A DNA stretch of 64,000 nt from Natrinema sp. DC36. Its GTDB lineage: Archaea; Halobacteriota; Halobacteria; Halobacteriales; Natrialbaceae. The translations under genes and the position numbers were made by a program. Location: assembly GCF_020405225.1 (NCBI RefSeq), contig NZ_CP084472.1:1426001-1490000 (forward strand). The letters are read 5' to 3'. Below the pieces are notes generated by a model. It was not told the DNA's origin. It searched no databases and saw nothing but the letters and a program-made list of their open reading frames with translations. This document shows, one piece after another, positions 15,414 through 21,205 of the stretch (position 1 is its first letter; each line of letters begins with the position of its first letter).

Positions 15414-15498
15414 GCCGAGATAGCCTAGCCCGGCCAAGGCGGTAGATTCGAAATCTACTGTCCTCACGGACTCGGGAGTTCAAATCTCCCTCTCGGCG
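15414..15498 (+). tRNA. tRNA-Ser (anticodon CGA)
   Basis: An 85-nt class II tRNA. Acceptor GCCGAGA pairs with TCTCGGC, followed by discriminator G73 (typical of Ser). The D-stem is GCC/GGC, the anticodon stem GTAGA/TCTAC encloses loop TTCGAAA with anticodon CGA (reads UCG). The long variable arm has a GTCC/GGAC stem, and the T-arm is GGGAG-TTCAAAT-CTCCC. CCA is not encoded and no intron is seen. The 3' end of this gene is copied downstream, the usual sign of integrase use of a tRNA attachment site. Confidence 0.97.
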
Positions 15499-15525
15499 TT
15501 TTCACGACGACAACGACGGTGAGCG
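15478..15525 (+). repeat. tRNA-Ser 3' end plus downstream hairpin arm, copy 1
   Basis: This stretch covers the T-loop to the 3' end of the tRNA and the following TTTTCACGACGACAACGACGG. It recurs almost unchanged at 15764-15812 (I see two mismatches over 48 bp). The sequence after the tRNA also pairs with 15534-15551 (CCGTC..CATCGTGAAAC), forming a stem that could act as a 3' processing or termination structure. Confidence 0.85.
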
Positions 15526-15598
15526 GAGCGAACCGTCCGTCATCGTGAAACCCATACGGAGATTTGAATCAGGGAGTGAAGCGACGCGGAACGACCGT

Positions 15599-15620
15599 GG
15601 TTCAAATCTCCCTCTCGGCG
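15599..15620 (+). repeat. tRNA-Ser 3' end, copy 2
   Basis: The 20 bases from 15601 match the tRNA 3' end exactly (TTCAAATCTCCCTCTCGGCG). It is again followed by a hairpin (CTTTTGCAGCAACA with TGTTACTGCAAAG at 15673-15685) of different sequence from that after copy 1. No upstream tRNA half is present, so it is an att-like fragment and not a gene. Confidence 0.85.
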
Positions 15621-15763
15621 CTTTTGCAGCAACAAACTGGTGAGCGCCGCGTAGCGGCGCGAATCAACTTCTGTTACTGCAAAGTGGTAAACGGGTGATT
15701 TGAACGAGACAAGTCGCAGCTCGCACAGCGACCAACGGGAGCGAGCAAGAACGTCTTGGCGTT

Positions 15764-15812
15764 GTTCAACTCTCCCTCTCGGCGTTTTCGCGACGACAAC
15801 GACGGTGAGCGG
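15764..15812 (+). repeat. tRNA-Ser 3' end plus downstream segment, copy 3
   Basis: Near-identical to 15478-15525, with TTCAACT for TTCAAAT and CGCGACG for CACGACG, so the duplication includes sequence beyond the tRNA. Inverted fragments of the T-loop region also lie in between (GGAGATTTGAA at 15558-15568; GATTTGAAC at 15697-15705). No integrase gene survives nearby. Confidence 0.85.
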
Positions 15813-16083
15813 TGCGTGTATGAATCCGATTATCCTCGAGCAGAACCGCCTCGAGACGCGTGAGTGACCGGTCATCGGGTTCGATGCACCGGTGATCGGA
15901 AATCGGTGCGGAGCTGCGATTGCGGTGCGTTGTAGTCGCTCGATGGCTTCCTGACACGTCAAACCGACCGAAACCCCATCACTCGCAAGGAGGACCACTA
16001 TGCAAATTCTGGTCGTATATTCAATGTCACAAGTCACCAATGTACGCAACCATAGCGCAGGCCGTTCCGACGAGGTGGGTGCG

Positions 16084-17824: not shown

Positions 17825-19489
17825 CTACACGTCGAAGCCGAAGTTGAAGTCGCCCTGCCACTCCGCTCGTTCCCCGGCGAAGTTGGTTTCACCGTAGTGC
17901 CGATTGCCGACCCACAGTACCGACGAGAGCGTCGTCTCGGGGTCGCTCATCACGAGTCCCTCGAAGAACGAGCTTTCGACGGTGTGGTCCGCACCGCTCT
18001 CGGCGAATCGGAGGCTCGCGCCGTCGGCTTCGACCGTACAGCTATCGAGCTCGAGTCGGTTGATGTCCTCACCGCCGTTCGTGACGAAGACGCCGTGTCG
18101 ATCAGTCGAGGACTGCGGTCCGATGTCGAACTCGCAGTCGTTGAACGTGACGTTCGACGATCGGACGTAGACCGCGTAATCGGAAATCGTCGGACTCGAG
18201 CGGTCGGTTATCGTACAGCCCTCGAAAAGGGTCGGTGCGTGGTCGTTGTCGTTGATCCGGATCGCTCGGCCGTCGGTTCCCTCGTCCCCGATGTGTACGT
18301 CGGTTAGTCTGGCGGGTCCGTCCTGGGTCAGACGAATGATTTCGGTGTCTTTCTTGATCTGGTTGTTCACCAGCAACTGGGAGACCAGCTGACCGCCGCC
18401 GCTCTCGATCCAGAGACCGGACCACGGGAAGCCGGGGTGTTCGGTCATCGTGATCTGGCAGTCCTGTACGTAGTCGTTGGGGCCGATTCGGATGCCCGCA
18501 CCGGCACAGTTGCGGACGTGACAACCGGTAATGATATTTCGGCCGTCGTCTCCCGAGACGTAGATTCCGTTATCGATGTAGCCCGACACCTGACAACCCT
18601 CCCAGAAGTTCGTACCGTGATTGTAAACGTCCGAACTGAAGGGGATCGCGTGGCCGACGTGAGTCGATCGGTCGGACGCCGTATCACCGTTACCGAGGTG
18701 GCAGCCGCTGATGACGTTGGTCGTCGAGGACCGAACCCCGTCGACCAGGATCGTGTGTCGGTCGCCGCCGTACTCGAGATTGAGCCTGTCACGCGTCCCC
18801 CGCATCGAGACGTTCTCCATGTGCCCGTACCGGTAGGTGAACCAGCGAGCGATACCGGCGTCGTACTCGCCCCGAATGTCGACCTGTAGGTCTCGCATGA
18901 CGGTCCGCTGGGCGTGCGGGAGCGACGCGTCCAGCGATCCGACGGTCATCAGGCGGTCGACGTCCTGATCGGTCACTCTCAAGACTGCGAACGGATCGCC
19001 GACGATGCCCAGGTACTCGTGGGCGTCGAAGTGGATGTTGTCGGTCTCGACGTGCCACGTCCCGGCGGGTATCTCGTATCGGTGGTTTCGCTCCGTCGGT
19101 TTGAACGAGGTGTAGTGGTCCTCGATCGCGGCCCAGAGGTCATCTCCCTCGGGTTCCACCCCGAGATCGTCGCGAACGTCGACGATGTTCGGGTTCGTAT
19201 CCCCACGAACGCTAACGGTGTTCGGAGCGGATTGGGTCGCCGAGAGCGAGCCGTCGAAATTCAACTGCGACACGGTATCGGCGATCGTCGTTCCCGAGTC
19301 GGTCACAGTTATCCCGCGTGCGGACGCATCAGTTTGTGCTGCAGCGACGCCGGTGCCCTGCGATCCTGATGCGGCCGTGCCGGTAACGACACTGCCGAGC
19401 CCTATCGCGGCGAGCGATCGGATGTACGAACGACGTGTCGTGTCTCCAGTAGTGCCAGTCGATCCGTCATGCTGATGGTCGGTTTCCAT
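17825..19489 (-). CDS. Tat-exported right-handed parallel beta-helix protein
   Basis: 554 residues from ATG 19489; an upstream in-frame start at 19531 is less likely because it places extra residues before the signal. The Tat signal is TTRRSYIRSLAAIGLGS (about 17-33) with an AAA/AQT-type cleavage region near 55. The rest shows repeating short beta-strand turns (GCHLGN, GCQVSG, GCHVRN, DCQI, GCTI, DCEF, SCTV), the pattern of pectate-lyase-like beta-helices. The family includes polysaccharide lyases, depolymerases and adhesins; no catalytic residues can be assigned. It is convergent to the Fe-S gene, in the accessory region between tRNA-Ser and the IS element. Confidence 0.85.
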   Translation of the reverse strand: METDHQHDGSTGTTGDTTRRSYIRSLAAIGLGSVVTGTAASGSQGTGVAAAQTDASARGITVTDSGTTIADTVSQLNFDGSLSATQSAPNTVSVRGDTNPNIVDVRDDLGVEPEGDDLWAAIEDHYTSFKPTERNHRYEIPAGTWHVETDNIHFDAHEYLGIVGDPFAVLRVTDQDVDRLMTVGSLDASLPHAQRTVMRDLQVDIRGEYDAGIARWFTYRYGHMENVSMRGTRDRLNLEYGGDRHTILVDGVRSSTTNVISGCHLGNGDTASDRSTHVGHAIPFSSDVYNHGTNFWEGCQVSGYIDNGIYVSGDDGRNIITGCHVRNCAGAGIRIGPNDYVQDCQITMTEHPGFPWSGLWIESGGGQLVSQLLVNNQIKKDTEIIRLTQDGPARLTDVHIGDEGTDGRAIRINDNDHAPTLFEGCTITDRSSPTISDYAVYVRSSNVTFNDCEFDIGPQSSTDRHGVFVTNGGEDINRLELDSCTVEADGASLRFAESGADHTVESSFFEGLVMSDPETTLSSVLWVGNRHYGETNFAGERAEWQGDFNFGFDV

Positions 19490-19771
19490 CACGAATTCAC
19501 AGTCACGAATTCCCGAATTTGTTATACCCAATCTACTGATAATTTCACAACTGCAAGCGGCCGCGGATCAGTTTTCTTCCTGCAATCGTCCCGGAGACGA
19601 TCAGTAGGCCCACGCATATCGCGGGCGATCAATCACGACGCCGTCCCCGGGAAACTACTGACTATAATCGATCCTAATCGTGATCCGCCTACGCCAGATC
19701 GGAAGTGGCCTTCCCGTCGAGACCTGTCCGAAACCACATGTATTCAAGCGACTCGAGTCGAAGTATCGATT

Positions 19772-19973: not shown

Positions 19974-21205
19974 CTACCCCGCCCTGTTCGGCCTGACGGC
20001 CTCGCTGAGGACGGGGCTTCCTGTTTCTAAGACGCGCTTTGCAGGAACCGAATCGATTCCCGTAGGGAGCGCAGTCTCCGCAGGCATTGAATCGGGGTGA
20101 ACCACCCCTACTTCGGTGAGTCCGCGAGAAAGGATGTTGTAGGCGGCGTTGAGGTCGCGGTCCGCCTCGAATCCGCATGAAGGGCACGAGTGTTCGCGTA
20201 CCCACAGCGGTTTGTCGGTCGCAACGCCACAGTTGGAACACTCTTTGGTCGTTCCAGCCGGTTCGACGGCCACGAAGTGCGTCCCTTCGCGGTCGCACTT
20301 GTATTCGAGCATCCGAAGGAACGTTCCCCACGCCGCTCCGGCGCGGTTGCGGCTGTTCGAGGGGAGTTCCATCAACCCCTTCGCGTCGAGGTCTTCGACC
20401 GCTACGAGGTCGTATTCCCGAGCGTAGTAGTTCGAGAGCTTGTGCAGGAAGTCCCGACGCTTCCGCTTCAGGTCGGCGTGGCGTCGGGCGACGATGCGCT
20501 GTTGCGTGCGGTAGTTCGCCGAGCCGTGTTCCTTCCGCGAGAGCTTGCGTTGTTCGCGTTCTAACCGCTCGCGTTCGTCGGTTAGGTCGGGGCCTTCGAC
20601 GGCGGTCCCGTTGCTGTCGTGAGCGTACTTCAGGATACCCACGTCGATTCCGATGCATTTCTCGGGATTCTCGGGCTTCGGTGGCGCGTCGTTCTCGGTT
20701 TCGATTCCGAGGACGGCGAACCACTCGCCGGTCGGTTCCTGCTTGACGACGACCTCCTTGATCGTGGCGTCGTCCGGGACCTCGCGGTGATAGACCATCG
20801 GAACGTCGCCGATCTTGGAAAGAGAGAGAGTACAGGCCGACCGCTCGTGTTGTTGAGCTTGAAGCCGGTTTGACTGTACTTGATCGAACGGTATTCCTGC
20901 GGGGCTTTCCACCGAAGCTCTCCGACGCGGTAGCCGTTGTCCTTCCGCCCCTTCAGTGTCGAAAGGTTGTCGTACAGACGTTGTACGACTTTCTGAAGCA
21001 CCTTCGAGTGAACGTCCTGCAGGTCTGTCCACTCGCATTTGAGGTCCGGGAGGAGCTTCTGCTCGGAGTAGGCGGAGGTTCCGTCCACTCTGTTGAGTCG
21101 GTGAAGGAAGTGGTTATAGACCTGCCGGCAGGTATCGACGGTCCACGCTAACCGCTCGTGGAGTTCGTCGGTCGGTTTGAGCCTGTACCGGTAGTTGTAG
21201 CGCAT
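19974..21205 (-). pseudogene. tnpB: RNA-guided endonuclease TnpB, frameshifted in a (CT)5 tract
   Basis: The N-terminal part (MRYNYRYRLKPT..., from 21205) and the C-terminal part lie in two frames that switch at a (CT)5 run, seen as (AG)5 at 20821-20830 on the plus strand. Removing one CT gives a continuous protein of about 410 residues reading VLSLSKIGDV across the join. The RuvC-like residues are all intact in the downstream frame: Asp in GIDVGILKYAH, Glu in VAVEDLDA and Asp in DRDLNAAYNI. The zinc ribbon CSNCG...CPSCG is intact too. The break is therefore a single recent slippage event, a sequencing error, or a recoding or phase-variable site. Intact TnpB is a nuclease guided by an RNA from the element's right end. 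Confidence 0.88.

Follow-up and report, generated by a model that had tools for sequence, protein, structure and literature searches.

Tail copies behind tRNA-Ser(CGA) belong to an order-wide class of tRNA-anchored repeat and hairpin arrays in Halobacteriales

In archaea, a repeat of the tRNA tail downstream of an intact tRNA gene is known from the attL and attR sites of integrated elements, including those of SNJ2, SSV and pNOB8-type integrases and of the HF2-like prophage at the Haloquadratum tRNA-His. The arrays described here share that feature but hold neither cargo nor integrase; their repeat is a uniform 20 bp, they stand behind about half of the tRNAs and their spacers are hairpins of a common kind. 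Casposon and CRISPR adaptation resemble them in the tRNA T-loop target, the duplicated target and the order in which leader-proximal units are newest, and the casposase of A. boonei, which produces 14-15-bp duplications, targets TCAAATC within the tRNA-Pro T loop (PMC6614799). Unlike those systems, the arrays occur in several carriers in which no Cas1 was detected, show no matching terminal inverted repeats to the eye, and have spacers that form one related hairpin family. With REP/BIME and PATE/MITE elements they have in common short non-coding palindromic repeats in mosaic arrays, but their hairpins are not dispersed (46 of 50 lie directly downstream of a tRNA in three genomes, positions compared by eye) and have outer arms that reproduce the T arm of that very tRNA. 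In Haloquadratum walsbyi, deletion between short direct repeats, partial tRNA duplications included, collapses them to one (PMC3119063); this documented haloarchaeal process accounts for loss and size change of arrays but not for the origin of their units.

The window analysed here is a stretch of 64 kb on the main contig of a 5.1-Mb genome (G000) whose closest named relatives are Natrinema and Haloterrigena. Its tRNA-Ser(CGA) gene (15414-15498, plus strand, as are all array features below; ARAGORN) ends in the 20-nt array repeat TTCAAATCTCCCTCTCGGCG (15479-15498, T-loop T54 to discriminator G73). As the preliminary description had claimed, this tail recurs exactly at 15601-15620 (0 mismatches) and with one change at 15765-15784 (1 mismatch, beginning TTCAACTC); no further copy with <5 mismatches was found in the 64-kb window, and shuffled flanks gave a copy with <=2 mismatches in 0 of 1,000 trials. 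Spacer 1 begins with a T-run and a terminator-like hairpin, H1 (15499-15550; fold -24.6 kcal/mol, z -3.8), and continues with an inverted T arm (GGAGATTTGAA, 15558-15568) and a hairpin interior of type A (TCAGGGAG...CGACCGTGG, 15569-15600), a form that occurs across families of Halobacteriales. The inverted arm is the 5' arm of a T-arm hairpin (15558-15611, z -2.9) in which it pairs with the exact tail copy, and the whole spacer is orthologous in the close relatives G018 and G021 (95-96% over the spacer). Spacer 2 comprises a T-run and a hairpin unrelated to H1, H2 (15621-15685; -29.4 kcal/mol, z -4.0), a second inverted T arm (GGTGATTTGAA, 15694-15704) that pairs imperfectly with the second tail copy (z -1.4), and an interior of type B (AAGTCGCAG...CGTCTT, 15705-15764). 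The two T-arm pieces are the inverted T-loop fragments that had been noticed between the copies. Behind the second copy stands a truncated duplicate of the 5' half of H1 (15785-15816), which belongs to a 53-nt repeat (15478-15530 and 15764-15816, 94% identity) extending 32 nt past the tRNA end, not the roughly 27 bases first given; one relative (L010) has other sequence in its place. A hairpin had been proposed after every copy: counting the tRNA as the first, different ones do follow copies 1 and 2, whereas the sequence from 15785 on has no stable fold (z +1.7). Matches to contigs C2-C4 of the same genome were considered as plasmid att sites and rejected, as they cover only 15723-15747, inside the second interior.

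The order PEPC, tRNA-Ser(CGA), 4Fe-4S ferredoxin-type gene (PF16947, PF13247; 16000-17757, plus strand, outside the array) is common to many relatives, such as the annotated Natrinema thermotolerans A29. The array thus sits between two conserved neighbours and therefore opens no accessory region, contrary to the preliminary description, which had placed the left edge of one here; its remark that no integrase remains agrees with the ORFs examined between 16000 and 21205. Beside the ferredoxin-type gene, a gene on the minus strand (17825-19531) encodes a secreted right-handed beta-helix protein (PF13229) and is possibly the region's true accessory part. Further along, an IS1341/IS605-type TnpB lies in two frames (19974-21205, minus strand) and is probably frameshifted, with the N-terminal HTH_OrfB_IS605 domain in 20630-21205 and OrfB and TNB in 19974-21038.

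Among 30 relatives within the genus and family, the number of extra tail copies at this site is 0, 1 or 2 under the cut-off used, with Natrinema gari (L039) as an example of an empty site, and the spacers contain no genes in about 30 relatives. The comparison with related genomes that had been suggested thus yielded empty, one-copy and two-copy states, but no intact element between copies. Since copy number varies at one syntenic site, where the same three copies might have been found in fixed positions throughout, the Ser-CGA array is not one fixed ancient array. The H2 unit, which here follows the first extra copy, lies directly behind tRNA-Ser in four relatives (L020, L033, L035 and L036; flank similarity 0.80-0.94 against a background 99th percentile of 0.64), which argues for gain and loss of complete units immediately downstream of the tRNA. 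These four contrast with L009, L010 and L012 as empty and filled states of one position, in which deletion and gain are not always separable.

The Ser-CGA locus is not a local scar but belongs to a class of tRNA-anchored arrays that spans the order Halobacteriales. Every tRNA gene identified in G000, and in G182 and G058 from two other families of the order, was examined on its 3' side; a sequence within 350 nt was counted as a tail copy if it differed from the last 20 nt of that gene at no more than 4 positions. Copies of the gene's own tail followed 21 of 43 tRNAs in G000 and 22 of 43 in both G182 and G058, mostly 70-230 nt downstream, against 0.8, 1.6 and 1.2 expected, respectively, from the tails of other tRNAs (permutation, 0 of 20,000 in each genome). 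Specificity for the own tRNA held for the inverted 11-nt T arm as well (again 0 of 20,000 in each of the three). The hairpin pattern GATTYGAAN{20,50}TTCRAATC is present in 375 of 392 Halobacteriales genomes; in a phylum-wide draw it was found in 42 of 43 members of the order (1-24 per genome) versus 20 of 204 others (0-2 each), whose matches are at chance level and share no interiors among those listed. Some families tend to have units behind the same isoacceptors (correlation with P = 0.003, in one pair of three), which may reflect selection or merely a permissive context.

The anatomy of the unit is uniform at both edges. First copies, 81 in all, were compared from five genomes, of which three are closely related, so that not all copies are independent. 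Own-specific identity was 0.89-1.00 at tRNA positions 57-73, with positions 54-56 universal; it equalled the control upstream of 52 and lay close to it past 73. These sharp, shared edges mean that the repeat runs from the T loop (about 54) to discriminator 73 in all tRNAs, a target-like block of 20 bp. The spacers of five genomes are 69-189 nt long (5-95% range; median 101) and contain no genes, and 139 of 147 carry an inverted T arm. Units are ordered as a T-rich start (46% T and 11% A over the first 8 nt), a hairpin, and then inverted T arm, interior and T-arm copy; inspected by eye, spacers have a T-rich start and a variable end in GG, with the inverted T arm internal. Three interior types, A (TCAGGGAG..GACCGTGG), B (AAGTCGCAG..CGTCTT) and C (GACCGAGGTTC..GGTTCTCGGGCG), are found again at different tRNAs and in different families; similarity is 92-98% between close species for units at the same tRNA and reaches 88% over about 70 nt for units of different tRNAs within one genome. 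The inverted arm tends to fit its own tRNA (mean 4.4 of 7 versus 3.2 permuted), the match declining from 0.93 to 0.62 over positions 61-64 and reaching chance by 67. This complementarity to the own T stem is unexplained by plain insertion with target duplication; palindrome-directed correction or selection could be its source.

Several loci depart from or add to this plan. An intron-bearing, tRNA-Trp-like gene (L151, G000:C1:1407296) that was missed by ARAGORN and RF00005 has a type-A unit and a partial tail copy behind it. A further, nested hairpin family (GAAGACGCGAAGCGTCTTCC..) occurs within the loops of several units (L003, Arg-GCG; L170, Val-TAC; L314, Phe). At Leu-GAG of G000 (L192), a different and longer duplication of about 200 bp comprises the tRNA 3' end and flank and is without a T-arm hairpin.

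Copy number differs at many tRNAs among G000, G018 and G021, and empty and filled states are paired at Pro-GGG (G021 versus G018) and Pro-TGG (G018 versus G000), although loss and gain are not always separable. Unit order is swapped between the compared genomes at Leu-TAG, and in G182 a tandem array of near-identical 111-bp units stands behind Gly-TCC. The interior of the Met-CAT hairpin in G000 is the reverse complement of that in G018 and G021 (L009, L010 and L011 compared with the G000 locus L178, and with L324 and L355); it is the single inversion seen, as pattern searches among 147 units found no inverted copies of types A-C, and inverted interiors were rejected as a common state. At loci with several copies, the last was more degenerate than the first in 17 cases, less so in 3 and tied in 13 (P = 0.003). 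Where the tail differs between species, copies follow their own tRNA at 321 of 347 unit positions, the other species' tRNA at 13 and neither at 13; in the Ser-CGA array of G018, tRNA and copy have both changed from TTCAAATC to TTCGAATC in a unit that is otherwise orthologous and whose inverted arm kept its sequence. Such tracking of the own tRNA, and such joint change of tRNA and copy, is concerted evolution at the DNA level. In the compared genomes, filled and empty pairs, swapped order, inversion, decay and concerted change show the arrays turning over as DNA. Random slippage was rejected as sole origin because adjacent units behind a given tRNA mostly bear no relation to each other in hairpin or interior and the edges are fixed, and a reverse-transcription stop at modified T-loop bases was not supported as the cause of the left edge because position 57 is copied too.

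The direct repeat of a tRNA 3' end at Ser-CGA is what a scar of integration would leave: viruses or integrative plasmids would have entered at the tRNA 3' end through a tyrosine recombinase and lost their cargo, with the copies as attL and attR remnants. The repeat coincides with the typical archaeal att region, from T loop to 3' end (PMC8371274), and real islands do occur at some of these tRNAs. At Thr-GGT (L372, G000:C1:3690049-3697700), a second copy sharing about 34 nt lies 7.6 kb away and is preceded by a PF00589 integrase gene; at Lys-CTT (L375, G000:C1:777973-793600), the copy stands at 15.5 kb beside a PF00589 integrase and shares 14 nt. Both islands lack a T-arm hairpin, however, and their att blocks differ from the array repeat. 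At Lys-CTT the place of the G000 island is taken in G018 by a hairpin unit, and both abut the same distal flank, which points to two different kinds of insertion at one site. Neither integrase nor element genes lie between the repeats at this or related loci. Moreover, the type-A pattern, the one type scanned, is absent from viral contigs, no haloviral match to the units was found in the phage collection, and the sole plasmid match is this tRNA-Ser locus on a 987-kb replicon. The scar model would also require that, at each of around 20 tRNAs in a genome, cargo was lost precisely until some 100 bp with related interiors were left, and above all the same architecture behind about half of the tRNAs across the order is not what local histories of virus integration predict. 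Scars of viruses or plasmids are thus unlikely, and we give this explanation little credence. The preliminary description had left open integration and loss of elements or serial tandem duplication of the 3' end with its terminator; repeated gain and loss and tandem duplication with a terminator-like hairpin stand, and the virus-integration scar is improbable. A far tail copy at Pro-TGG in G018 (7.3 kb) was considered as an island and is rather an empty site, because the flank behind the tRNA matches the flank behind the copy in G000. At His-GTG of G000 (L181), an AT-rich region with an AAA-ATPase-like frame directly follows an extra tail copy, with no second copy within 40 kb.

Insertion of short hairpin DNA behind the tRNA by a Cas1-family integrase, with duplication of the 20-bp target and the newest unit closest to the tRNA, would account for the repeat-spacer layout, the target-duplication logic, the least decayed state of proximal copies and own-tail copies whatever the origin of the spacer, and a T-loop target is precedented by the tRNA-Pro site of the A. 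boonei casposase (PMC6614799). Yet Cas1 (PF01867) had no match in G000, G021, G182 or G398, all carriers of T-arm hairpins; inverted repeats like those of casposons are not apparent by eye at the outermost ends of the spacers; the repeat measures 20 bp, not 14-15; the inverted arms fit their own tRNA; and the units form one structural family instead of random captured DNA, all of which makes this the least probable of the explanations considered. A functional RNA trailer, with units transcribed behind the tRNA for termination, 3' processing or as decoy T arms and kept by selection on RNA structure, is somewhat better placed, although we still regard it as improbable. Units are always sense-oriented behind tRNAs and are found order-wide, their T-rich starts fit archaeal U-tract termination, and the hairpins are more stable than shuffled sequence (median z -4.8 and -2.4) and, beyond what composition explains, fold more stably in the sense of the tRNA than in reverse complement (P about 1e-7), a bias that leaves room for an RNA role of the hairpins. 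In the helix of inverted arm and T arm, however, G.T (39) and A.C (45) mismatches are equally common, with no wobble signature, so RNA pairing is apparently not what is kept there, and antisense folds of the H hairpins hold more G-U pairs than sense folds (157 versus 79). Same-genus species lack units at the same tRNA and retain the tRNA, copies of the acceptor strand have no pairing partner in the hairpin, and of the Rfam models the tRNA itself alone scored above threshold, so that no family matches the units.

The explanation that we consider best, and probably correct, is a lineage-wide, tRNA-anchored array of repeat and hairpin cassettes that undergoes unit-wise gain, loss and gene conversion. 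Genome comparison documents its architecture, specificity for the own tRNA, fixed edges, unit-wise presence and absence, change and amplification of copy number, conversion and decay. On this model, the last 20 bp of the tRNA gene would serve as the repeat and non-coding spacers of about 70-190 bp, each with a T-rich start, a hairpin and a T-arm hairpin, would enter and leave as complete blocks immediately downstream of the tRNA. Gain would be site-specific, with the exchange located in the T loop and with a recombinase that acts in trans on the non-coding units as its most likely driver, and virus or plasmid cargo would never have been involved in most of these units. The direct repeats would then delete, amplify and homogenise the array through repeat-mediated recombination and gene conversion at the DNA level, and distal copies would decay; we infer that loss and size change proceed by such recombination, which is known in haloarchaea for repeats of this size (PMC3119063). 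Against the model stands that the analysis turned up no enzyme that performs gain; the fit of the inverted arms to their own tRNA, the greater stability of the hairpins on the sense strand and the isoacceptors shared between some families also weigh against it. The T-loop edge and the single inversion would suit a tyrosine recombinase, and the target duplication a casposase-like enzyme, yet Cas1 was undetected in the four carriers named above. More tentatively, and with appreciable doubt, the units may be minimal non-coding mobile cassettes of about 100-130 bp that use the tRNA T loop as recombination site and are moved by a putative host recombinase with the folded T-arm hairpin as substrate, in a CRISPR- or integron-like manner across the order.

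No description of such arrays was found in the open-licence literature of PubMed Central; subscription journals lie outside this scope, and a prior description is possible. We call the arrays new in kind because they fail the defining tests of att scars, of casposon or CRISPR insertion and of REP-type palindromes, and we put forward the mechanism of gain as a proposal. We caution against reading a duplicated tRNA tail in these genomes, alone, as evidence of a past virus or island; since the duplication does not by itself indicate an island, att-based island calls, and the spurious ORF annotation at such sites, need revision. If this interpretation is true, rapidly changing repeat arrays for which the host's own tRNA genes serve as template are present in a whole archaeal order; the responsible enzyme could then be sought, as could a function in protecting tRNA genes, in termination or in the defence of att sites.
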